DNA of 64,000 nt from Tubiluchus corallicola (taxonomy: Eukaryota > Priapulida > Priapulimorpha > Priapulimorphida > Tubiluchidae), in NCBI GenBank assembly GCA_030141605.1, contig JAQGDQ010000196.1, positions 124,001 to 188,000 on the forward strand, written 5' to 3'. The notes beneath the pieces were generated by a model. That model ran no database searches. It saw only the letters and a program-made list of their open reading frames with translations, and was not told the DNA's origin. The position numbers and the translations under genes were made by a program. This document shows, in pieces, positions 1-64,000 of the stretch (the first letter of the stretch is position 1; each line of letters starts with the position of its first letter).

Positions 1-1149
1 TAAACCAATTGGCTCAGTTACAATCCAGATATACTGCTTAAACTTGTATACATTTGCAATATAAAATCAACTTTTAAATAACATCAGTAATAATTAAGCC
101 CTGATGTAGTTAACGGTTATTTACTTACATTGTAGGTCCAATGATTTGGACTTTCCCGTGAGTCACAAAACTCGCAACGGTTGTTCGGATTTAGTTCAAG
201 ATCTTCAAAACACTGTTCTTCTATTAGACACGTGCTGGACTAAAGTAAAGAATAGTCTTATAAAACACACAGAAAAGCAGCCTGCCTACCATTCTAAAAA
301 CAGCTTATTTGCTCAAAAACGTATCCTATTATAAGCTATTATATCATTTCCTTGAGTGTTTTAACTTTTAAAGGGGAACATGACCCAATTTTAAACTATA
401 ACTCAAAATAATCTCGTACATAAAATACAGAAACAAAGTTAAGAATGACATACGTGAAAGAATTATTATTATAGAAGTTTCGTTTCACGTTCGCACCTTG
501 TTACATGCATTTCGCCATTTGCTAGTTACATTTATGACAGCATCCTGAATCTCAAGGCACATATTTATGAGGAAATCATCACACAGTGGTAAGCTTGTAA
601 TTTGAATTTTTAAACTTAAAATTTGATGAATTCTTCCATCTCACACAAACACGTGCAACACGGTCGTGCAATGTTTGTGCTGTTGAAAATTACGTTCAGT
701 TGTGACGTCATCACTAGCTGCGCTCGCTGTTCGTTAACTAAGTTTTTAGGCTATTATTAATTATCAGTTGTCGAGTAAATGAATGAAACAAGTTTAAATA
801 ACATCAAGTGAAGTTCGAAAACATAATCAGAGCACTCGTAACGCACATTTCACTAACAAAACAAAATAAAAAATTACTTTATTATATCAATAAGCTCAAT
901 ATATGCTTTTTGGAAAGCCAGTGGTGCACACTGGGAAGAATGAGTCAGAGACGTTTTACCAGCTGGCACAAATATTTTAAATTAGTAAGAATTTGCTTTT
1001 CTAGTGACATACGTTTTCAAACAGGCAAGTGAAAAGCTAAATGATATAACTTTGTATGGAAAATTTTTAGGACCTATCTTAAAATTCACTGATTCCTTTG
1101 CCTTCTCCTTTAATCTCAACACTACGCTCAGAAATTGCAATAAACAAAC
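1..1149. other. Downstream flank of VWDE-like gene, no gene seen
   Basis: This AT-rich stretch lies 3' of the last VWDE-like exon I can support. The short open frames in it look like chance. The gene may continue here or beyond the window edge, because no stop codon was found in the last recognised exon, but I saw no further 111-bp cysteine-module exon. Confidence 0.4.
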
Positions 1150-7283: not shown

Positions 7284-7489
7284 CTGTCAATAAACACCAA
7301 ACAATAGCCGTTACGAGTTGTCAGTTGTCAGTTGTCCGGTGCACATCGTTTGTCTCGTGCTCCGGTTGCTAATTATACCAGTTAGTGTTGAATAGATTGT
7401 GATTAGGCCGTGAGGCCAAGGCTGTACAAATTTACTTATAGTTAAAAGATACTACGTCGAACAAAGTATATGTTAAAAGACATACATGA

Positions 7490-9043
7490 ATGGCAAGGAA
7501 AAGTTGCACGCTTTGCAAAAGTGCAAAAAATCCAGTAAATAAAAATCAGCTATTTCTTGCAACGTGCGAAAGGTGCTTCAAAAAACATAGGCAAACGACG
7601 AATATGGGAAATGATGGACACGAGGCGGCAGAAATTGTGTTTCCCGACTTCGTACTTGTTGGTGATCCAGAGGGCGAACGATATAAACAAATGCTAATTG
7701 CCTTGCAAATAAAAACCAAAAATGACGAAAAAGAGAGTAAAAAGACAATTCAATGCTTGGAGTCAAAACTAGCTGCCAGCTATAAAGAGCAGTCAACTCT
7801 CATCGAAAAGGTTCATAAATTATCAACGGAACTCTCTGAACTACAAAAAAGAAAGCGAAATGTAGGCAACCAAACAAGTGATAATTCCTCCAAAGATCCC
7901 AGTCACACAGATGAAGCAAGTCAAACTTTGCTTGTGAATGGAGACACCTCCTCATCGAAACACGGCAATAACGACCTTCCATCGCAGGGCGAAACCTTGC
8001 AGGAAAAGGAAACTTGCAATGCCACAATAACTGTGAATCAAAGAAGGAAAAATCATAAGACCATACATGCAACCACTCAAACGCTAGTCCTGGGAGACTC
8101 ACGGACCGTATACTTAAATCCAAAGGACATCGGGCAAAACGTCCAGGTACACTCATACAGAGGCTTAACATTAGAAGAGTTAAGCACAAAAGTGTTAAAC
8201 CATTATCCAGCTATGAAGCTTGAAAATGTGATCATCGCTTGTGGTGTAAATGACATAAGACGGCTAGCGCAAAAATGCGACGAGGTTGGACAGCAAATCG
8301 ACAAAGAATCATCAGTTAGAGACATCATTACAATTGCAGACAACTGTGCAAAAAACATTGCAAGTAAGTTTAAAGCTGCAAACATTTTTATTTGTAATAT
8401 ACCGCTGACTTCAAAAAGTAAGCATGTTAATGCAAAACCATGTAATATCTTTCTGACAAACGAGCTTATACGCTCTTTCAATGATGATCTAGTCTATTTA
8501 GCTAACAAAGAGGGCTATTTATTGTGCAACATTCAAAGTCATTTTTTAGCTGAAGGGTTAATGGCAAGAGACGGTTTACATTTAAGTCGTGCTGGTGTAT
8601 CAAAATTAGCAGAACGACTGAACTTATGTTTACACAATGATCCTAAGCGTTGGTACGAGAAAACAAGACGCAAGCCAATGTCCCATACAAACCCATACCA
8701 ACACAATTCTGCAATTTCGCGCCTAAATAACTCGTTTAATTTACGTATTGGTTCATCTCACAATACCAGCTATTCAGACGCAGTTAAGAAACCTGGTCTT
8801 CTCCCAACGCCAGTAATTAACGACCCACAGCGAACCTACTCCGTTTCGAACCGGAGAGAGCCATCTGAACGAAGCAGTTTGTACTACACAGAATCGGCTA
8901 AAGCTCATTATCCTAATAAATGTTCTACAACACTGCCAAGCCAAAATGAACCGCTGCTGTTAACTCAGGAACCAGTTCTAAAATCCGAGATTGAAAACAT
9001 ACTAACCAAAGCCTTTAAAGAGCTTATCTCCAAGTTCATATAG
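7490..9043 (+). CDS. CR1 ORF1: Cys-rich N-terminus, coiled coil, SGNH-type esterase
   Basis: The intact frame encodes 517 residues. Residues 6-29 contain CTLC and CERC pairs, suggesting a small zinc-binding or PHD-like fold. Residues about 80-125 form a Glu/Lys/Leu-rich coiled coil. From about 195 to 385 an SGNH/GDSL hydrolase domain shows all blocks: GDS at 202-204 with the nucleophile serine, a conserved glycine in the SYRGLT stretch, GVND at 252-255 and DGLH at 361-364 supplying the Asp/His pair. The C-terminal 130 residues are polar and disordered-looking. CR1-clade ORF1 proteins commonly carry such an esterase and are thought to bind RNA or chaperone the ribonucleoprotein; the esterase substrate is unknown. 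The gap to ORF2 is about 100 bp. Confidence 0.85.
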   Translation: MARKSCTLCKSAKNPVNKNQLFLATCERCFKKHRQTTNMGNDGHEAAEIVFPDFVLVGDPEGERYKQMLIALQIKTKNDEKESKKTIQCLESKLAASYKEQSTLIEKVHKLSTELSELQKRKRNVGNQTSDNSSKDPSHTDEASQTLLVNGDTSSSKHGNNDLPSQGETLQEKETCNATITVNQRRKNHKTIHATTQTLVLGDSRTVYLNPKDIGQNVQVHSYRGLTLEELSTKVLNHYPAMKLENVIIACGVNDIRRLAQKCDEVGQQIDKESSVRDIITIADNCAKNIASKFKAANIFICNIPLTSKSKHVNAKPCNIFLTNELIRSFNDDLVYLANKEGYLLCNIQSHFLAEGLMARDGLHLSRAGVSKLAERLNLCLHNDPKRWYEKTRRKPMSHTNPYQHNSAISRLNNSFNLRIGSSHNTSYSDAVKKPGLLPTPVINDPQRTYSVSNRREPSERSSLYYTESAKAHYPNKCSTTLPSQNEPLLLTQEPVLKSEIENILTKAFKELISKFI

Positions 9044-9139
9044 GCCTAGTATCGTTTAGCTTGGTTTTAGACATTACTCTGAACTTTAAAGCTAGTCTGC
9101 GTAAACCTGTTATAAAACTCTTTTTTTTACTATTCTATT

Positions 9140-10531
9140 ATGATTTTAATGATGACACTGAATAACAGAAAATTTTTAGCACTGCTGCTAGTGAATTTTT
9201 ACATAATATGGCAAAATAGGCCAATCCATCCTAACTCGTGTAAAGATTATAACGTAACAATTGTGTATACTAGTATTATAATAACAATTATCTCACCCAC
9301 GTTATTACATAATAGGAAATATTTACTTCTTATAGTACTGTATTCTATACAAGCCCTTTTACTCGCAACCGATATTAGTATCCTTATGATCGTTCTAAAA
9401 TTAATTTACCACGCATGTGTAACGTTCTACTGTGTAAGCTTGATACTATGCTGCCGTATTACTGCAAAAAAACTGCAAGTTAAAGTTATTTTATTTGTGT
9501 TAATAGGTACATTTTGGAAACCATACGAATTTACTTCTTGTATCATAGTTGATATTTCTAACGTATCTTATCATAAAATTACCAAATTTATTTGTGATTA
9601 TGGGAGCCTTTGTATATTTAACGCCAAATATCAAACAGTTAAGTTCTTTTATTGTAACTATGCTTACGTCTTAGTTATACTACGTACATTACTATACATA
9701 CTAAAACTGAAAATGATCTACGTAACAGTAATTTGTAATGTAATGACTAAAGGTAATTTAAACAACTTTTTCATTGCTTTTCCTGTAAATAGCGATAGAA
9801 TAAGACACTCTATGCAATTTATTTTAAAAAGATTTGTATCCATCTTAAAAGTTGTGTACCTCGGTGCTATAAGACAAATGCGTCATGTCAATCTAAAATA
9901 CGTAGCACTAAAAAAATTGGAAAAATTACAGATTTCATCTAAATTTGAAAGCACTCTATACTCATGTTCTGAACTGGCTTACATTTTAACCATAATTCGT
10001 TTACTACTTATACTTGGTGGTATCGAAACTAACCCTGGACCCATTTTGCCAAATAATAATAATAATAACACCAACAATAATAATACCAGTGATGAGCTAA
10101 AAGAATTCATGATTACTTATAAAAAGAACATCAAATTTCTAAATATAAATATTCAAAGTCTCGTCAAAAAACACTGGCTGCTGAAAGATACAATTCACGC
10201 CACCGAAAATCTGATTGTAGGCATAACAGAAACTTGGCTACATAAACAAATACTTAGCAACACTATAGAATTACCTAATCACACATTAATAAGAAGAGAT
10301 CGATGTAAAAATAAGAAAGGTGGAGGGGTTGCGATGTATATACCTTCACACCTGAGACCACAAGAAATGAAAAGCATCAGAACCGGCAAGATTGAATCTG
10401 TTTGGTGCAGCATTGAGAACTATGTAATAGGAACTATATATAGACCACCCAATCTCAAACACAAAACATTTTTCAAATACTTTAGTGAAGAACTAGAACG
10501 CAGTGTTTTCGAAAATAAAAAGTTCTTATAA
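9140..10531 (+). CDS. CR1 ORF2 N-terminal part: hydrophobic leader, 2A-like motif, endonuclease start
   Basis: This is the first segment of ORF2 (463 codons before a stop). Residues 1 to about 292 are very hydrophobic (Ile, Leu, Val, Tyr, Cys), with several potential membrane segments and a few basic stretches. Residues 293-301 read GGIETNPGP, matching the 2A consensus apart from G in place of D. Ribosome skipping would separate the leader from the enzyme between G300 and P301. An Asn-rich linker follows, then the start of an APE-type endonuclease (NINIQSL, ITETWL, GGGVAMYI, YRPP). The frame stops at 10529-10531 because one base appears missing just before the MGDFN block, which continues in the next frame. 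2A-like motifs are known in APE-type LINEs, but such a long hydrophobic leader is unusual. Confidence 0.8.
   Translation: MILMMTLNNRKFLALLLVNFYIIWQNRPIHPNSCKDYNVTIVYTSIIITIISPTLLHNRKYLLLIVLYSIQALLLATDISILMIVLKLIYHACVTFYCVSLILCCRITAKKLQVKVILFVLIGTFWKPYEFTSCIIVDISNVSYHKITKFICDYGSLCIFNAKYQTVKFFYCNYAYVLVILRTLLYILKLKMIYVTVICNVMTKGNLNNFFIAFPVNSDRIRHSMQFILKRFVSILKVVYLGAIRQMRHVNLKYVALKKLEKLQISSKFESTLYSCSELAYILTIIRLLLILGGIETNPGPILPNNNNNNTNNNNTSDELKEFMITYKKNIKFLNINIQSLVKKHWLLKDTIHATENLIVGITETWLHKQILSNTIELPNHTLIRRDRCKNKKGGGVAMYIPSHLRPQEMKSIRTGKIESVWCSIENYVIGTIYRPPNLKHKTFFKYFSEELERSVFENKKFL
10016..10042 (+). other. 2A-like ribosome-skipping site in CR1 ORF2
   Basis: The codons spell GGIETNPGP, preceded by a Leu-rich stretch ending LLLIL. 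The NPGP core is where 2A peptides prevent the Gly-Pro bond from forming, here between the codons at 10037-10039 and 10040-10042. The first residue of the D(V/I)ExNPGP consensus is G here, a substitution that can weaken activity in some contexts. Confidence 0.8.
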
Positions 10532-11136
10532 TGGGCGATTTCAACCTTGATATTTTAGCTACAAACACACTGGCATACAAAACATACACCGAGCTCTTAA
10601 AACAATATAATGTCCACATACTTAACAACAATAAACCTACTCGAATTTCTAAAACATCAGCCACAGTAATCGACCATTTCATTTCGAATAGTAACAATAA
10701 TTTCGTAGCATATGATACTTTTCCGTGTGATTATTCAGATCATCATTTCATAATATTAGTAGATAAAATGACCCCACAGCATAATAATAACCAAAATTCA
10801 GTCTGGCATTTAATGAGAGACTACGCCCAATACAACAAACATTCATACTTAATCGACTTAGCAAAAATGAACTGGACCTCCGTATATATGACTGATAAAA
10901 TAGATACACAAGTTAATATTCTGACATATAATGTCGAATATTGCCTTAATGTACATGCACCATATAAAAACGTAAAGCAAATCCCACAACAAAGCAAACT
11001 CTATAACGAAAGTACCTGGACAACACCTGAACTTGACAAACTAAGAATAGCGAAAAACAGAATGTATAATATATGGGAAAAGAACAAAACTAAAAACAAT
11101 CATAACAATTATAAAAAAAAAGAGAAATCAATTTAA
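10531..11136 (+). pseudogene. CR1 ORF2 middle segment: endonuclease C-terminus and linker, shifted frame
   Basis: The segment begins MGDFNLDIL and continues through VIDHFI and SDHHF, which are the conserved C-terminal endonuclease blocks including the catalytic SDH. It ends at a stop after a run of nine A at 11113-11121. Beyond this run the coding continues in the next frame, so a one-base change in the run broke the frame. The overlapping TAATG at its start could look like stop-restart coupling, but the ORF2 protein would be cut in mid-domain, so a frameshift is the better reading. Confidence 0.8.
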
Positions 11137-12241
11137 TAATCTTAATAAATGCTTGAAAAATAAACATATACAACAACAATGTAAAAACGCAACAAATACC
11201 AAAGAAAAATGGAAAATTATTAACAATGTAATAAATAAATGCCGTAACAAACTAATGCGTGTTGACGAAATTAAGATCAACAACACTGTTATTACAAAAC
11301 CCAAAGATATTGCCAACGCGCTAAATGCAATATTCCTGAATCTTGGAAATTTTAAGGGAGTGGCTTCTCATATTAGCAATAATATAATTAATAAATTAAA
11401 AAACAAATCGTCTAACACAGTATTCTCGTTCAAAAGCGTCACAGTAGGAGAAATTAACGACATATTAAATAACCTAAGTTCCAACAAAGGGAGTGGACCA
11501 TCAGATATTCCTATCAAAATTCTAAAAGATAGCGCATCTGTAATAGCCCCGCATATGACTTACATTACTAATCAGATAATTATGAGAGGCGAATTTCCAA
11601 CGGTATGTAAAATGGCAAACGTGACTCCAATCCATAAAAAAGATCCAAAATGTGATCCCATGAATTATCGCCCAATTTCCGTAATCCATTGTTTCGGTAA
11701 AGTTTGGGAAAGGGTAATTTATGATCAGATAAATTCATATGTAAATAAACATGAACTTTTATCAAAACATCAGTTTGGCTTCCGTAAACACCATTCAACC
11801 ATTGACGCCCTAATACACACAACAGAAAATTGGAGACATAGTTTAGACAACAAGCACTACATTTTAGCAGCATTTTTGGATTTAAGTAAAGCTTTCGATA
11901 GCATTAATCACGAACTACTTTACGATAATTTAAAACAAATCGGATTAGATTCGATATCGTTAAAACTGATACAAAATTATCTCAAAGATAGACAACAACG
12001 AGTAAAGTTAGATACAACCAACTTTTCTGACTGGGCCACGTTAAATAGAGGTATACCGCAAGGAACACTACTAGGTCCGTTATTATTTTGCCTATATATA
12101 AACAACATATCCAGTGTATTAAAACACTCACAAATAACGCAATACGCTGATGACACTACAATCTACATAGCCCATGAAAATGTCCAAACTGCAAAAAATT
12201 ATTTAGAAGAAGATATAAAAAAATATAAATATGGCATTTAG
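11117..12241 (+). CDS. CR1 ORF2 reverse transcriptase segment
   Basis: This frame encodes the RT fingers and palm. The first ATG in it is at 11153, but the coding resumes directly after the A9 run. Visible RT blocks are VTPIHKKDPKCDPMNYRPIS, HQFGFRKHHST, motif A (FLDLSKAFDSINHELL), motif B (RGIPQGTLLGPLLF) and motif C with catalytic QYADDTTIY. All catalytic aspartates are intact. The frame ends just after an A7 run at 12217-12223, where the protein continues in the next frame. Confidence 0.88.
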   Translation, partial: KKRNQFNNLNKCLKNKHIQQQCKNATNTKEKWKIINNVINKCRNKLMRVDEIKINNTVITKPKDIANALNAIFLNLGNFKGVASHISNNIINKLKNKSSNTVFSFKSVTVGEINDILNNLSSNKGSGPSDIPIKILKDSASVIAPHMTYITNQIIMRGEFPTVCKMANVTPIHKKDPKCDPMNYRPISVIHCFGKVWERVIYDQINSYVNKHELLSKHQFGFRKHHSTIDALIHTTENWRHSLDNKHYILAAFLDLSKAFDSINHELLYDNLKQIGLDSISLKLIQNYLKDRQQRVKLDTTNFSDWATLNRGIPQGTLLGPLLFCLYINNISSVLKHSQITQYADDTTIYIAHENVQTAKNYLEEDIKKYKYGI

Positions 12242-13103
12242 TCATTACAAGCTAAAAATGAATAATGACAAAACAGAATTCATGATACTGTCACCCTCAT
12301 TAAATACTAATGATGCATCATCAACCACTTTGACAATAGATAATGCTGTAATCAAACAAACTAACAATGTTAAATTCCTGGGCATACAAGTAGACAATAA
12401 TCTTTCATGGGATGATCACTTTAATAACATATACACAAAAATGGCATCTAGCACATCATATCTCCGACAAGTTAAAGGGCAACTAACAAAGGACACTAAA
12501 ACACTAATATATAAAACTTTAGTTCTACCACACTTCTTATATGGATGTACGCTACTTCAAAAAACCAAAAGAGAAAATTACTTAAAATTAAATCTCCTTC
12601 AAAACTATGCGTTGAGATTGATAGCTGGGTACTCATACAAACACAAGGCAGGTAGACAAAAATTCAAAGCTTCAACAACTAACCTGAGAAAAACTTTAAA
12701 ATTCCCAATCATTGAAGCACACAAAGAATATTTTACTCTGCTTTTTATATTTAAATACATTAACAACATCAGCAAACCATTCCAGAATAACAGATTTACC
12801 TTTTTTCCAAATCCTATCGTTAATTCCAGAACATTCAATCTAAAACAAATTAGGACAAATACCCACTATGGAACGAACTCTGTAATCAAACAAGCAATTT
12901 TACTTTGGAATTCTCTACCATTACAGGTTAAACAAATCAAGTCCCTATCAGCATTTAAAACAAAATTAAAATCACTAATATTAACCAGATATGAAATACC
13001 ATCACACCAGTACGACAACATACACACTAATTCCGAATTCATATACCCACGGCCATATTTATTAAATCATAGTTTTTTATTTTTTTTATTTTTTTGTGTA
13101 TAG
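12231..13103 (+). CDS. CR1 ORF2 C-terminal segment: RT thumb and tail
   Basis: The segment starts near the ATG at 12231 in the third frame and includes LKMNNDKTEFMIL, VKFLGIQVDNNLSW, the region with VLPHFLYGC, and the CR1/L2-type C-terminal block with ILLWNSLPLQVKQIKS. It ends with a hydrophobic F/L-rich tail. About 170 bp of AT-rich 3' UTR follow. Confidence 0.85.
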   Translation: MAFSHYKLKMNNDKTEFMILSPSLNTNDASSTTLTIDNAVIKQTNNVKFLGIQVDNNLSWDDHFNNIYTKMASSTSYLRQVKGQLTKDTKTLIYKTLVLPHFLYGCTLLQKTKRENYLKLNLLQNYALRLIAGYSYKHKAGRQKFKASTTNLRKTLKFPIIEAHKEYFTLLFIFKYINNISKPFQNNRFTFFPNPIVNSRTFNLKQIRTNTHYGTNSVIKQAILLWNSLPLQVKQIKSLSAFKTKLKSLILTRYEIPSHQYDNIHTNSEFIYPRPYLLNHSFLFFLFFCV

Positions 13104-13275
13104 TTGTAAATATGTTTGATTTTATTCGTCATTACTGCACAGTAGTTTAGATTGCACTGACGCATTTGCCTTCAGCAGTGTAAGTTTTTATTAACTAACA
13201 CTGATTGATTATCTCTATAAAGTTTTTATCAGTGATTATCAATGTTTTTAATGGCAAATAAATAATAAAACAAGA

Positions 13276-16301: not shown

Positions 16302-19300
16302 GTATCAAGGCATTTCAGGGCTTACACCGAGTACATTAACGTCTACGTTAGTATATTTTTATGTGCAACATTTACTAAAATTTGGTGCGTTGTGTCATTG
16401 GTTACAGAAGGCGTAGCCGACTCGATAAGTCATTTATTTCACATTACATAGACATTTTATTTTTCTCCAATTTGCGTCACAAATTTTCGTTTTACAAAAA
16501 ATAACTTTTGTCTGTGGAGATGGGGCGAGGAAAGACCGTAGGTCATCTACTCACTCACCCCTTATAATTTAATGTCGATGACAGAAAAAGCATTGATGAC
16601 ACAGGATGCAAATAAACTAACAAAATAAAGCAATAACAAAAGCAGAATTATAAAAGCAAACATAACAACAATAGCATAAGCGAAAAAAAAGAATAAACAA
16701 ACAGTGGTAAAAATAAAATGATGATGAAATTAATCACAATGCCGTAATTTATGTAGATTTCTCATATTAAACGAATTTACACGAAATATTAGATACACAT
16801 TTACAATAGTTTCATGTAGTAGTAGTAGTAGTAGTTAATCTCCAGTAGTTATAATATAACTTTTGAGACAAATAGTTCTTCGACTGTAATTGCGACAAAT
16901 TGCACATTTAATAGATTGTCATCAACACCTAGGTGACTCCACTGGCAAGTTTTCTCACTATAATATGTAATCCAGCATCCTTGTTATAGGCATGTTCCAA
17001 TTAGCACGGTGATTAAATTTCAATGGATGATGTTCATAGTGTCTATCTAATTTTGATTTAAATAAATTTACAGATGTTGCTGTTCTCACATCACAGGGCA
17101 ATCTATTCCAGATTTCTGGCATCGTACAAGAAAAATAGTCGTATTTACCAGTTTTGTGTGCAGTTCTTGATTTATGAAGAATAGGACCTGATCTTGCTGT
17201 ACGATGTACTTCTAATTTAACAGGACAATCATCACAGCTGTAAACTCCAGATACATATTTGTATACATCAATTAGTTGGCCACGTAAACGTCTAAAAGCT
17301 AATGTAGTTAAACCTATTCGTTTTAACTGACTTTCATACGTCAAGTTCATTAGTTCCGGTAACATGTTGAAAGCTCTCATTTGGACAGTTTCGACTGGGT
17401 CCACTATATATGCCCTAGGACTATTCCAAATACTACTTCCATACTCCACTTTTGATCGCACAAGTGCCACATATAGAAGCTTGAAAGTTTGCAGATCTAG
17501 GTACTTGAAATTCCTCCTTATTAAAGCATTGTTTCGTTTGGCACTCTTTATGATTTCTGCTATGTGATCTTTAAAATTTAGTTTATTATCAAGTAATAAT
17601 CCAAGGTCTTTCTCACAAGCACTAAAGTCCAATTCTGCCGGAATGCCACTTGCATCATACATTTTGTATTTATATTCATATCCTGCTCCCACAGATACAA
17701 CCTTACACTTGTTGGGATGGAACTGCATACCATTTTCAACTGCCCAATCACAGAGCCCTTCTAGATCCAATTGAAGATCATTACAGCTGGTAAAAGAATC
17801 AGATTCAGACCAGATTTTGCTGTCGTCGGCAAAAAGACGAAGAGAATTACTCACACAACTAGGCAAGTCATTTATAAATACCACAAATAAACACGGACCT
17901 AATACCGAACCTTGCGCTACACCACTAGTAATCAAGGACTCAGTCGATTTGCAACCATCAACACACGTACATTGACTTCTATTTTCTAAGAAGTTTACTA
18001 TCCACTGTAAAACTGAACCAGTTATACCACAATTTTTAAGTTTTGCAAACAGAAAGTGATGAGGTACAACATCAAACGCCTTTTTCAGGTCCAGTAGTAT
18101 TATATCAAAAGGCTTATTAGCATCTTTTAACTCAAACCATGCATCGTAACATTGTAACAGTTGGGTAACCGTTGTTCTACCCTTAACAAACCCATGTTGT
18201 TCTTCACAAATAATGTTGTATCTTATCAGATGGTTCATTATATGTTTCCGCATGATTTTTTCTGTCACCTTATTAATTGTATTTAGTAAGCTAACTGGCC
18301 TGTAGTTCGATGGATCTGACTTGTCCCCTTTTTTATGAATGGGAGTAACCTGTGCCACCTTCCATTGTCCAGGTAACTGACAATCAGCAAAAGACCTATC
18401 CAGTAAGGTGTATATAGGCTTAAAAAGCACAGTTCTACATTCATTTAAAATACGTGGATGGTAACTATCTGGAGCGGATTTGTTTACATTGAGATTTTGT
18501 AACTCATAAAGCACCTCTTCTTCAGTTATGGAAACATTGCTGATATCAGGATATTGTTGCACTGTAGTTACTTCATAGTCAGAAGCGTTGGGACTAAATA
18601 CACTAATGAAAAAATCGTTCAAAATTTGTGCCTTCTCCTCTGAATCAGAGACAAGAATACCTTGGGAATTCTTCAGTGAATGAATTCTAGACTTTGGCTT
18701 CCGAAGCGCATTGATATACTGCCAGAATGCCTTGGGATTACTCTTGCAATTACTTGCTAAAATACGTTCATATCTTTTTCTCGCAGTAGTTATAAGGTTT
18801 TTCACCACATTACGCCTTGCAGCATACCGTTCATAAGAAAGTTTTGTTCTTCGTCTCTTCCAGTCAAAAAACAACTTTTCTTTCTCCTTAATACAGCCAA
18901 GCAACTGCTTAGTTAACCAAGGAGGCCGAGGTCGACTACTCTTATTATAAAAACTTGGATAGAAACTAGGCACATATTCATCAACAACTGACATGTACAC
19001 ATTATGAAATTTTGTCCACATATCATCAAGAGTAAGATTACTATTTAAAACATTAATCCAATCAACTTGGCTAAATGCATTACACATACTTTCATGTACA
19101 ATATATAGGCTTTTATAGTGAAAGGGCCTACAATGAACATAATACAAATAAGCTTCTTATTGTTTCTGCAAAAGAAAAGCCTCACACACTGTTCACCTAT
19201 GTACAAATGTGTTGTGGGCAATCAAAAAGCATGGCTTGTTAGATTGTCCCACACAGTGAAAGAAAAAAAGTAATAGAAATAATCAGGAAATTTAAAGTGA

Positions 19301-22300: not shown

Positions 22301-25300
22301 GTGCTTGTTTGTTAATGTAAGGTACACATGTGAAGATGTGTATCTGTTTGCATTTAGATTATGTCTGACAATAATATAAAAATATTGTACACATATTTAA
22401 TGATAAACAATGATGAACAAAATAAGGCTTTAGGAAAGGTTCTCCAGTTGAATTACCATTAATAAATGTTTGCGAAATTTTAATTAAGTGTATGGAAAAT
22501 AACTCGATTACTGTTGGTATATTTTGTGATCTCTCTAAAGCCTTCGATACCATTGACCATGTTATATTACACGATAAGTTATCTTTCTATCTTGATAACC
22601 ATAAGCAGTGCATCAGATGTAATAATTATACCTCAACTGAACTCTCCGTAAATTGTGGTGTTCCTCAGGGTTCTGTTTTAGGACCACTTTTATTTTTGAT
22701 TTATATCAACGATATAAAAAACATTTTTAGTTGTCATAATATTATTCAGTTTACTGATGACACCACACTCTTTTTCAATTTCATTCATTTCAGCATTACT
22801 AACATAAATAATAGTTTAAAAGCCAACAAATTATCTCTTAATCCCACTAAAACTAAGTACATTCTATTTCGATTCCTTTACATTGTAGTCTTTATATTGA
22901 TGGCCTTCCTATAGAAGGTGTTCAATTTACCAGATTTTTAGGTGTAGTTTTGCATCTGGACTGCTGGACTGGAACTCTCATATAAAAATGATTAGTCTAA
23001 AAATAGCCAAAAATATAGGTATTATGTCCCATATTAAATACAATTTGTCCAAATCACATATACTTACTGTTTATTATTCTTTATTCTATCCTTATTTAAA
23101 TTATGTTAGTTCCCTTTGGGGAATCACATACGCGACAAATCTTAACCCTTTACATTGACTTCAAAGAAAATTTCTTCGTTTGTATTTCAGATGAAATGAA
23201 TTCACCCCAGTATTTAACTCTTTAAACAATGTAACATCTTGTCTATTGATAACATAGTGTTTAATAATATTGCAATTTTCATGTTAAAACTAATAGCAAA
23301 TTATTACACAAGTTCTTCAAAAATCCTATCAAACTGAATGCAAGATTTCATACTCCACGATTTAATCAATACTTTCTTCCATATGTCCGAAAGTTGCCAA
23401 GTATTCATTTCCTTTGCTGGGCCATTAATTTGGAACTATCTACCTAATCATATAAAATCAGAACATAGTATTTGTAAATATAAAAAAGCCTCAAACTCTT
23501 TATTATGAACCATAATCCAAACATTTATCATCTGTAATGTTTCATATCACACTCAAAGATGAACAAGAATGGATTATACTCCATAACAAGAAGAGGTGAA
23601 AGAAACTTTGTAGGCAGGTGGACATAATCTCACTCCTCTCACCATTTGCAGTTGTGTTTGCCTTGCTGATTTATTTACATTTATTACGTTTTTATTAGCT
23701 CATGTGAATCGAATTCTCTACTTTTTTATTTTTTTCTTCTCTCACTTTCATATTACATTTTTCATATCCCTTCACTTTTCATACTCCTTTTCTTCCCATT
23801 AACCACCTTTTATTCTTGCATCTATGCTTTTCTTTCTATTTGCCATATTGGGGCTGACTTCTACAAGTTTTCTTTTTGGACAGCCCCAATAATCCATTAA
23901 TCAACTTTATTATTTACATGCTTGTTTCTTTTAATTTGGTATTTTGTATTTTCACCATATTTATGTGTTATTTGGTCATGGCAAATGGAATAAAATAAAC
24001 TAAACTATTTATGCATTTTTGTTTAATGGCCATTATAAAAAGTGCAGTGTAGAGGAGTTGAATATGATGGAAGGGAAATTGAAGGAATTAAATTTAAGCT
24101 TTATTATAAAGTTGTTATGCAGTTTTATTGTTGTATTCTCTAGGTTAAAATTACATTTTACCCAGATTCTTTCCGCTGTGGCACTCATACGAACATTAAA
24201 ATGGCTGTGGAGGCGTCTGCTGGTCTTGCTAAGGTTCCGACCACCAGGTCTTCCAGAAGATGCATGGGCTGATGCAGTTGGGAGTCTGAGTGCTGCTGAT
24301 GCTTTACCATTTGACTCATATGATAGGTAATTACTAAATCAGATATTTAGAGACAGATATTACTAGAGATATTACTAGAGACAGAAACAGCCAAGCATTT
24401 TAGCTTAAAAATAGGATAGTGCTCTTCTCAGATTAGCCATGGTCATAATCGTAAAAGAAGTTAAAATGCCCATAAATCTCAAAAAATTCTTTATTTTTTC
24501 TTTGGAAGCTTTCGTCCTCTCGGACTTCATCAGCTGCACAGAAAGATACAATAATAAAAAATTACAAATTTTACTTTTTCTTTTTCTTTATTTTTAATTC
24601 AGCCTCCTCATGCTTTTTGTACACTTTATTTTACTGACATTGCACATCATTATTTTATATGTAGCTTCATCTGTAATTTTTTATTATTATATCTTTCTGT
24701 GCAGCTGATGAAGTCCAAGAGGACGAAAACTTCTGAAGAAAAAATAAAGATTTTTTTGAGATTTCTAGCCAAGCATTTTATTAAGTTCATTATTTTGTTT
24801 CAAACTGTCAAAAATTTCCTTTTTTTCAAATTGCTTTAGACTACAATTAATTAAAATATAACGGTGTTCCTGTGTTTTTCTCTATTATCTAATGTGATTA
24901 ATCTGTTTGGCCCAAAACGCTGTAAATGTATTTATGTCAGAATGGCAAGATTATCACTAGAACGCTGATGCTAACACACCACAAATATTTTAAGAATCAG
25001 CACATTTTATTTGATCTAAGGCTGTGGGTCCCTGGCGAGCTTCCTTAACGTGAAAATTTAACATTATCAGAACAGATAGACAAACAATCAATTAGGTGTA
25101 AACTCAATATTATTTAACGTAAGAAAAACACATTTGAGAAATAAGTAACAAAGATATATTAAGAATTATTGTTTAGCTACTGTCTTTAATTTTAACCGGG
25201 ATTTTTAAATGTACCACAAAACAGCATAAACTGTACTTATCGTGAGTCTCTGTGCACACGTTGGCTAGCTAGCTTAACCTCGTCACTGTCGCTGTCGAGG

Positions 25301-31335: not shown

Positions 31336-42258
<10,923 letters not shown>

Positions 42259-47285: not shown

Positions 47286-47552
47286 ACGGGTTATCATGGT
47301 TTCAGCTATTCATTTCTTAATTTTATTTTTATTGTAGGTTTGTGGTGTGTCTTGGTATTATGTGATGGATCTTTTGCAGAGGCAACAAAACAACATTAGC
47401 CAATTTCGTGTTTTCTACTTGGCTCAGTTGGCTGTGACTGTGTTAAAAATTTGAATCTAAACTTGGCAGTTTCTAAGTTTTATACTCCAGTTAAGTGAGT
47501 GTGGTATTAAATTTAGTGATTTTTTATTGGACTGGACAGATTCTGTTCTTAC

Positions 47553-50500
47553 ATGGCAAAATTACTAATGGTGCGAAGGTTGGGTGCGCCAACCGCCATT
47601 CCATCTGTGGTGCAAGAGATACGAGTGACTTGTCTAGGAACTAGCAGACCGCTGCAACAACATTCGCCAAGTAACAAGGACATTGACAGATTGGCAATAA
47701 ATAGTCCTTTAAGTTCTTGTTACAGTATTAGAAATTATTATTGCTTGTCAGCACAGCAGTATGTTTTTAAAAATGCAACTCATTGTCGTTTTTATGGATT
47801 GAAGTTTGAAAGCCGCTTAATGAGCTCAGCTGCCAGATTCGGATTATTAGTCTCACGGTTGCTAAGGCTGAGGTACCTATTACTTGGTTCAGCAATTGGA
47901 GGTGGAGTGGCATTAGGAAATACATACGAGGCTTGGAAAGAAAGACTTCCTGACATGAGCTGGATGAAAGAACATTTGCCTAACAGCAATGATTACAATA
48001 AGTTTGTCAACTGGATGAAAGAGCTAATGCCTAGTAAAGAATATTACGAAAAGCTTAGTGACTGGTTCACGCAGAAGAAAGGTAGTATTCAAATACCAGA
48101 TGGAAGTGAATATATACGTGTAGGAAGAGAGAAACTGTCAGAATGGAGAGATAACTCTGCCGAGTGGATAAGTTCTGCAGGTCATATCGTTAGTAATGTG
48201 GTACAAGGAGGTGATGCTGGTGCTTTTCCCGAAGAGTCCACAGTAACCACAAAGGCAGCACCATCTGTAATGTCTTTCAATCCGTTTCAGTCAAAGACGA
48301 AAGATGCCGATGATGACTATCATGTGCTAACAGACAAGGAGAAGTTAGAAGAACTGCAAAATGAACTTATGCAAGTCCAACTTAAATATCAACGAGAAAT
48401 TGAACGTTTAGAGAAAGAAAATAGAGAATTAAAGAAGCAGTTACTGATCAGAGCTGAGAAGCATTCTAGGGTGAAAAGAAAGTTTAAGAAGTCTCTGATT
48501 GACATGTACTCCGAAGTTCTAGATGAACTTTCCATATATGACTGCAGCTACAATACACAGGATCATTTGCCAAGAGTTGTTGTTGTTGGTGATCAAAGTT
48601 CCGGAAAAACTAGTGTCCTGGAAATGATTGCCAGAGCACGTATTTTCCCACGAGGTTCTGGCGAGATGATGACACGAGCGCCTGTAAAGGTAACTTTGAG
48701 CGAAGGTCCATATCATATTGCTACATTTAAGGATAGCACTCGTGAATTTGATCTGTCAAAAGAATCAGATTTGGTTGAATTGCGAAAAGAAGTAGAATTA
48801 CGTATGAGGAACAGTGTCCGGCAAGGGAAAACTGTGAGTAGCGAAACCATTTCCATGACTGTGAAAGGCCCTGGTCTGCAGAGGGTAGTTCTAGTTGATT
48901 TACCAGGCATTATTAGCACGCAGACAACAGAAATGGCTGATGATACTAGAGATTCTATCCATGGCATTTGCAGGACTTATATGGAGAATCCAAATGCTAT
49001 AATTCTTTGCATTCAGGATGGTTCAATAGATGCAGAACGAAGCAACGTTACGGATCTTGTGCGAGAAATGGATCCAAATGGAAAACGAACTATTTTTGTT
49101 CTAACTAAAGTTGATTTAGCTGAAGAGAACATGTTCAACCCAGACCGACTAAAGAAGATTCTAGAAGGAAAACTGTTTCCCATGAAAGCTTTAGGATATT
49201 TTGCTGTCGTGACCGGTCGTGGCAATGTGAATGATAGTATTGCAACAATACGTGATTATGAGGAAAATTTTTTCCGAAATTCCAAACTTTTTAAAGATAT
49301 GAACTTTAAGGCTACACAGCTGACAACCCAAAATATGAGTATGGCAGTATCTGCGTGCTTTTGGAAAATGGTAAAAGAGTCAGTCGAACAGCAAGCTGAT
49401 GCTTTCAAGGCAACACGTTTCAATTTGGAAACAGAATGGAAAAACAATTTTCCGCGAGTGCGAGAACTTGATCGTGATGAGCTGTTTGAGAAGGCAAGGG
49501 GAGAGGTTCTAGACGAGATTATAAATCTAAGCCTAGTTACACCCAGAGAATGGGAAGAAGCTTTTTACAATCATCTCTGGCAGTCTGTCAATACCTACAT
49601 GTTTGAAAACATTTACATACCCGCTGCACAAGCTGATAGTCCGGGAACTTTTAACACAATGGTTGATATCCGATTGAAACAGTGGGCAGATCAGGTTTTG
49701 CCAAAACGATGCGTAGAAGTGGGGTGGGATACGCTAATGATGCAGTTTCGGGATCTCATTGATAAAGATTGTGAAAGTAAGGATCATGATGCTTTGTTTG
49801 ATAAGTTAAAATTAGCCGTCATCGATGAAGCAGCCAGTCAACATCGTTGGGACAGGAAGGCTCCAGATTCTCTGCGTGTGATTCAACTGAATGCTTTAGA
49901 GGATCGGTCAGTGCCTGATAAGCAAACATGGGATCAGGCCATTACGTTCATGGAAAAATTTTTAAGGTTAGTATTTACTTTTTTTAATTGCATAACCAAA
50001 CAGTAAACAAAGTAAAGGTCTTTTTTGTTCTAAATGTGTGTTGAATGCCTTTACTATAGTTTTCAGGTGGCATTATAAATATTGAATTAAGATACATTAT
50101 AGAAAATTTCCATTGATTTGACATTGAAAATTGTCACCGAAAGGGGAAATGTGATAGACTAATGTTTATTCATTAAAGAGAGAAACTTGACCAGACTGAG
50201 TTGTTGACGAAGCAGTTAATGGGACCAAGTTTAAGAGAGCAGTGGATGTTCTGGAAATCCATATCAGATGAACAGAGAAAATGGCGTGCCACCATGTTTG
50301 AACTGAGCAAGATCATACAGGGTGAAGAAAAAGCGAGACCCATTCTAACACTAGAAGAACTGACAGCAACAAGAAAAAATCTGCAAGTGAGTTGGATCAT
50401 AATTAGCACTGAATTAACTTTCAAACCTAGTTGAATTAAATAATGACTTGTATCTGAGAAAGATCAGCGGAGAAATTAAAAATAATGAGATAATTCAGAA

Positions 50501-63179: not shown

Positions 63180-64000
63180 TCTCCGGATGATTGGCCCAGA
63201 GTTGATCTAATTGAGCTTTAAATTGAGAAACTGAAGAAGCACTCACTACATACTCAGAAAGCTTGTTCAGGCACTTGCAATACGAGCTGCAAAGAAATTT
63301 TGTTTTCTTCCCCATTTTGAGCCAAATTTCTTATTGATTTTAAGGGAATGTCTTCTTGTCCTGTGATGTATCTGAAGTTCAAATATATTATTATTGTGTA
63401 TCCGGTCAGTACCCTTAATGATTCCAAATGTCTGGATCATATCTTGTTTGTGTCTTCTGTGATTAAGTGTTGTACGTCCTAAGTGTCTTGACCTATCAGG
63501 ATACGTTCTTTCAGCTATACCTGGTATGGTCCTAGCTGCTCGACGCTGAATGCTTTCAAGGTCACAAATCATGCCATGTCTAGATGGGTTCCAAATCAAG
63601 TCAGCATAGCCTAAGACAGGTCTTACCATAAATTTGTAAAGGTTCATTAACATATCAGTGTCCAAGTATCTGAAGTTACGCTTTATTAATCTGCCGTGAA
63701 TATGATTTGTAGACTGAAGCTTGTTATTCACAGTAATGCCAAGATCTTTTTACTCAGATAGGTATTCGATAGGTCTGAGACTACTATTATGTGTCATGAC
63801 ATATAGTGATTTACTTGATATTTGGTTACCTATTTTCCTGACTTTATCATGGTTAAAATTCATCTGCCAAGTATTGCACCACTTATGTGCAAGCTCTACA
63901 TTAATTTGCATATGATGTTGATCCTCAGTGGTGGTTACCATATTATATATTTTGGTGTCATACATCATGTATATATATATACACGGATGTATATATATAT
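63180..64000 (-). mobile_element. CR1-like LINE 3' end, running off the right edge
   Basis: Minus-strand pieces read, in order, YDTKIY (a decayed catalytic FADDTKIY at about 63960), WCNTWQMNFNHDKV, a frame change near 63750, then LINKRNF-like RRNFRYLD, MVRPVLGYADLIWNPS and ESIQRRAARTIPG. The frame continues to NKKFGSKWGRKQNFFAARI and, past a stop, SVSQFKAQLDQLWANHPEKY. The 3' UTR starts about 63150. The rest of the element lies beyond the window. Confidence 0.8.
63267..63731 (-). pseudogene. RT thumb and C-terminal fragment of the right-edge LINE
   Basis: This 154-codon open segment covers the post-catalytic RT region (LMNLYKFMVRPVLGYADLIW, RRAARTIPG, LGRTTLNHRRHKQDMIQTFG). It is separated from the palm piece (63968-63750) by a frame break and from the last C-terminal block by a stop. 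Confidence 0.78.

Follow-up and report, generated by a model that had tools for sequence, protein, structure and literature searches.

A hydrophobic leader ending in a 2A-like motif at the start of ORF2 in an esterase-type LINE of Tubiluchus corallicola

A stretch of 64,000 nucleotides of the priapulid Tubiluchus corallicola genome (the window) contains a full-length esterase-type APE LINE of ~5.95 kb, whose ORF2 begins with a long hydrophobic leader, at the end of which stands a canonical 2A-like core. This layout was proposed in a first-pass annotation of the window, and the open reading frame, the hydropathy and the motif all bear it out. On the sequence evidence we think it rather likely that the leader is a third LINE protein, one that evolves fast, associates with membranes, is freed by 2A and works beside a lipid-esterase ORF1. 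The window element belongs to one of four related families in this genome, termed A (that of the window), B, C and D.

Organization of the element

The features of the window copy are summarized in Table 1. It is a recently active esterase-type APE LINE, probably of the CR1/L2-like group. The ORF1 product has the catalytic motifs of an SGNH esterase; its Pfam match to Lipase_GDSL_2 has E = 6e-4, under the curated cut-off, and the Lipase_GDSL cut-off is passed by ORF1 of family C. The RT is related to the RTs of non-LTR elements, and the EN region, which matches Exo_endo_phos_2 at E = 2e-4, under its curated cut-off, lies upstream of the RT in a single ORF. The leader, EN and RT share one frame in copies C507, C1793 and C2195, and in C507 the leader, 2A, EN and RT form an open frame of 1073 codons in the unedited sequence. 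The frame of the window copy is broken near 10519-10531 within EN, and again near 11050-11136 and 12219-12241. Position 10531, which had been taken as the end of ORF2, is thus an artefact of decay and not a natural end.

Table 1. Features of the family A element, in window coordinates
Feature	Position	Strand	Evidence
Whole LINE insertion	7316-13262	+	both ends (7316, 13262) common to C1543; 3' end common to C507 and C675
ORF1, 517 aa	7490-9043	+	coiled-coil-like region and SGNH/GDSL esterase domain; motifs GDSR, GVND, DGLH
Spacer, 96 nt, ORF1 stop to leader ATG, without any ATG	9044-9139	+	read directly
Hydrophobic leader, 301 codons including 2A core	9140-10042	+	ORF reading, hydropathy, copies
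Leader hydrophobic segments	near residues 8-26, 38-57, 59-90, 91-110, 111-129, 170-195, 279-297		
2A/StopGo-like core GGIETNPGP, RLLLIL just before	10016-10042	+	sequence motif
Asn-rich linker, (AAT)n-like repeats, length varies among copies	10043-10096	+	sequence
APE-type endonuclease (EN) region	10097-11040	+	motifs NINIQS, TETW, YRPP, GDFN, SDHH
Reverse transcriptase (RT) domain	11051-12241	+	RVT_1 E = 1.1e-32; PDB R2 reverse transcriptases E = 3e-9
ORF2 C-terminal part, frame-broken relative to RT	12219-13103	+	ORF reading
3' UTR	13104-13262	+	end common to three other copies

The poly-Asn linker past the 2A, encoded by AAT repeats, ranges from ~10 to nearly 50 codons across copies (the window copy and L032, L035 and L056). 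Elsewhere in the window, what seem to be other LINE families have left RT frames or fragments at 16958-19156 (- strand, open over 732 codons), 22426-22914 (+), 32458-34041 (+) and 63267-63749 (-). An 828-codon open frame at 47520-50006 was recognised by eye as similar to the mitochondrial dynamin OPA1, and is apparently intronless over most of its length.

An open, hydrophobic frame leading into a 2A-like core

From the ATG at 9140 there are 292 open codons before GGIETNPGP, as the first-pass annotation had read them, and the frame continues into the endonuclease by way of the Asn-rich linker. Across 2000 mononucleotide shuffles of the leader DNA the mean number of stops was 22.7 and none had less than 8, and no ORF of at least 200 codons was found in 20 shuffles of the window. 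The reported strong hydrophobicity also holds: leader GRAVY is +0.74, in the top 1.9% of 903-nt pieces drawn at random from the window (mean +0.13). It is driven by T at codon position 2, which is 45% in the leader compared with 24-30% in ORF1, EN and RT of the same element. In the window copy there is an in-frame stop upstream of a run of eight T nucleotides, and the reading frame is open from 9116 onward. That run (9124-9131) lies just 5' of the leader ATG, and in two copies with seven T the ORF2 frame is open back into the end of ORF1, with an overlap of ~25 nt.

AT-rich DNA tends toward hydrophobic residues, and another frame of the leader DNA has GRAVY = 0.62, as would be expected if a chance open frame had been joined to a chance NPGP motif. 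Yet no shuffle came near 301 open codons. In a scan of the genome the pattern (V/I)ExNPGP was found at 57 places, compared with 6 for the reversed control, and other copies and families have continuous frames of 1073 and 1219 codons. A chance ORF is rejected on the shuffle tests and contradicted by the copies, and we regard this explanation as extremely improbable.

The leader has 66 matches in its own genome. It is full length and free of stops (301/301 codons open) at 11 places, or ~5 after removal of redundant contigs. The window locus is present five times in the assembly on different contigs (C1796, C2016, C2136, C2140 and C2209, in each of which two matches lie exactly 274,864 bases apart), and C44, C2105 and C2125 are identical over the stretch compared; copy counts were corrected for redundancy. 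There are about five distinct full-length copies (the window locus, C1543, C675, C44 and C507), together with partial and decayed ones, and leader identity is ~98-99% in several other copies. The proposed check for an open leader in other copies therefore comes out in favor of one that has been kept open.

The core of tested StopGo/2A sequences is (D/G/C/N)(V/I)ExNPGP (PMC12846837), and both GIETNPGP of family A and GIESNPGP of family B fit it. Among the contexts known to function is a leucine-rich hexapeptide ahead of the core (PMC12846837), a class that the RLLLILG upstream of the core resembles by eye. The codons of the 2A differ synonymously between families (ATCGAAACTAACCCTGGACC, ATCGAAAGTAACCCAGGCCC), and the peptide core is kept. 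Family C has CTETNPGP, which is outside the core definition, with T where viral 2As have V or I, and its 2A may be weak or lost. The GCTETNPGP of this family is a natural test of a degraded 2A. Signal sequences upstream of a 2A can lower skipping in artificial constructs.

Two hydropathy scales place 5-7 hydrophobic segments in the leaders of families A, B and D, and 0-1 in that of C. The first-pass expectation of several potential membrane segments agrees with this count, although the number is no higher than composition predicts: family A has five hydrophobic windows compared with 4.4 in shuffles of the leader's own composition, which is no excess. In addition, the last segment overlaps the leucine-rich stretch that the 2A itself needs. 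On these grounds the leader is a candidate multi-pass protein, likely rather than proven. AlphaFold prediction of the leader alone from a single sequence gave pLDDT = 45 and was uninformative.

Sister families, recombinants and codon constraint

All four families have a leader closed by NPGP, and in three of them it is long and hydrophobic. Family B (C1793, C2195, C1820, C1873 and others) is ~64-66% identical to the window element in RT and 61% in EN. Its leader of 221 residues (GRAVY = 0.93) is followed by LLLILGGIESNPGP and continues through the RT, giving an ORF2 of 1219 codons. Family D (C692, C602 and C1451), with EN 51-57% identical to that of A, has a hydrophobic leader of ~240 residues (GRAVY = 0.65) ending in GCIESNPGP. 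The leader of family C (EN 59%) is just 129 residues long, Cys-rich and non-hydrophobic except at its end. The family C loci L071, L072 and L074 keep GCTETNPGP. L073 (C1171) has a different, hydrophobic N-part on a family C leader tail, and in C1873 (L064) the B leader is preceded by sequence other than B ORF1. The layout described as distinct in the first-pass annotation is therefore found in three families of highly diverged sequence, so it is not private to that of the window, and in family C the leader is short and non-hydrophobic.

Hydrophobicity is kept across the leaders while their sequence diverges. The A and B leaders align only over their last 59 residues, with 42% identity (hhalign P = 2.8e-6), B and D give a weak hint only (E = 0.001), and the N-parts of A and D do not align, so that a common origin for these is unsupported. 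We found no relative of any leader in Pfam, PHROGs, NCBIfam or PDB, the sole match being Med22 at chance level (E = 0.15), and none among viral or prokaryote contigs. Capture of a host or phage protein as the source of the leader was rejected on the database result. Four elements (C1810, C1831, C208 and C1080; L036, L051, L066 and L068) have ORF1 and the leader N-part of family D joined to the tail, 2A and EN of family A. Where compared with A, EN is 98% identical (C1080), but ORF1 only 38% (C1810). These joins indicate recombination; the break falls within the tail of the leader, close to an RQM that is shared.

Maximum likelihood (ML) estimates of omega over the whole tree are 0.86 for the leader of A (not significant), 0.83 for D and 0.63 for B (2dlnL = 6.5), compared with 0.48 for the A endonuclease (2dlnL = 20.6). 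Since many of the copies are dead, their decay dilutes an omega taken over the whole tree. We therefore compared changes shared by at least two copies, which mostly arose in the active lineage, with singletons, which mostly arose after insertion. Shared changes in the leaders are poorer in replacements, with pooled N:S = 54:37 compared with 238:75 for singletons (Fisher P = 0.0017, on copies that are not fully independent). The direction is the same in A (17:10 and 89:27), B (16:15 and 76:28) and D (21:12 and 73:20). The corresponding contrast for EN is 24:15 and 96:43, which is not significant even though its ML omega plainly reflects constraint, so the test is to be read with care.

Neutral simulations with the observed substitution spectrum give omega ~0.8, not 1, and pairwise NG86 P values thus overstate constraint. 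Set against spectrum-matched simulations, pairs from families B and D have omega = 0.39-0.47 (P = 0.003-0.03 for four pairs); decayed pairs are near the neutral value. Given the depletion of replacements among shared changes, translation of the leader is probable, as is a moderate constraint on it, weaker than that on the endonuclease. The dN/dS check proposed in the first pass thus rejects neutrality in the pooled test, but the window family taken alone gives weak evidence.

A putative third LINE protein

Where APE LINEs have a 2A signal, it reportedly lies near the N-terminus, in correlation with a single-ORF layout. Such elements belong to the CR1, L2, Rex1 and Ingi clades (Odon 2013; Heras 2006, on L1Tc). 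The window element is like these in that an ORF for APE EN and RT carries an NPGP skipping motif. In contrast to the single-ORF layout reported for them, the esterase ORF1 here is intact and the 2A comes after 220-300 hydrophobic residues. That APE LINEs may contain 2A sequences is known (Odon 2013, as cited in PMC12846837 and PMC11512398). The literature examined, in which Odon 2013 figures only by citation, describes no LINE with a hydrophobic leader of 220-300 residues ahead of a 2A. In zebrafish ZfL2-1, which has a type IV ORF1, an SGNH esterase ORF1 likewise precedes an APE-RT ORF2, and no hydrophobic 2A leader in ORF2 is mentioned in the excerpts of its description (Schneider 2013, PMC3905857). 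LTR elements of bdelloid rotifers with a small transmembrane or GDSL ORF3 likewise show an extra putative membrane protein and an esterase across element types; as far as excerpts of their description go, they differ in being of LTR type, with a separate ORF3 and no leader-2A fusion (Rodriguez 2017, PMC5408684). ORF1 exchange has been reported between the CR1 and L2 lineages (PMC4120745), and here the swap reaches into the leader.

How much of the leader matters? If only its last 20-60 residues were important, as the context of the 2A, the upstream part would be a fast-evolving spacer that is open and hydrophobic by happenstance. The confinement of the A-B alignment to the last ~60 residues, the lack of similarity between the A and D N-parts and the omega of 0.86 in the window family all agree with that. 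However, the D N-part alone (codons 1-186) shows a like trend, with shared and singleton ratios of 21:12 and 73:20 (P = 0.075), and omega for one pair is 0.43 compared with a neutral 0.83 (P = 0.003). Moreover, three families with EN identity of only 51-61% all still have a long, open, hydrophobic leader. We consider a mere spacer unlikely. A leader that serves as an N-terminal signal, directing unskipped product to the secretory pathway and leaving skipped EN-RT in the cytosol, with no role of its own, would follow the precedent of sea-urchin NLR proteins, in which 26-residue 2A signal sequences partition the products (Roulston 2016, PMC4981915). There too a hydrophobic stretch at the protein start runs straight into the 2A, and each hydrophobic leader here has an N-terminal or near-N-terminal hydrophobic segment. 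The NLR signals are short, single segments of a host immune gene, and they bear out only in part the first-pass remark that such leaders are usually short. Leaders of 220-300 residues with several hydrophobic segments go far beyond what a signal needs, and constraint was measured over the whole leader, so dual targeting appears quite unlikely.

We return to the reading of the leader as a membrane-associated third protein, under which the LINE most likely has three protein products. The leader ATG is 85-115 nt past the ORF1 stop in all four families, with no intervening ATG in A and D; family B has a 17-codon reading frame there, whose stop overlaps the leader ATG as TAATG. In the simplest model, ribosomes that have made the lipid esterase would restart at this next AUG. 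The leader, which is open, hydrophobic and probably under constraint, would then be translated and probably inserted into membranes. The canonical motif predicts that one Gly-Pro bond is skipped at GGIETNPGP, releasing the leader, and EN-RT would be made next with an N-terminal proline and the Asn-rich linker. In this way the 2A would spare the enzyme a fate as a membrane protein. By way of the leader, LINE RNA under translation might reach the ER or the outer nuclear membrane, where the lipid-binding ORF1 esterase would act as well. The leader evolves fast, and recombination between families exchanges it along with ORF1. Phospholipids and liposomes are bound by ORF1 proteins of the esterase type, from which a role of membranes in LINE assembly has been proposed (PMC3905857); a hydrophobic leader made before EN-RT and released by 2A would fit that proposal. 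The fullest version is tentative: a dedicated multi-pass protein at the head of ORF2, freed by 2A, which in concert with the lipid-binding ORF1 would tether translation of the LINE and assembly of its particles to membranes of the ER or nuclear envelope. Such a protein would diversify rapidly, as in a conflict with the host, and be passed between families jointly with ORF1. Against the third-protein reading stand the points made above on the number of segments and on upstream signal sequences. In addition, the codon evidence for the window-family leader is near neutral, the tips being dominated by post-insertion decay, and the short, non-hydrophobic leader and CTETNPGP of family C mean that a multi-pass leader is not essential in every relative.

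In the usual view, a LINE has just two products, the EN-RT enzyme and a protein that binds RNA or is an esterase. If the reading is correct, a membrane protein released by 2A would be a third LINE product. It would explain the presence of a 2A in a two-ORF element, as the nucleus-bound enzyme would be freed from a membrane protein encoded on the same RNA, and would make directly testable an idea of long standing, namely that LINE retrotransposition involves membranes and lipids.
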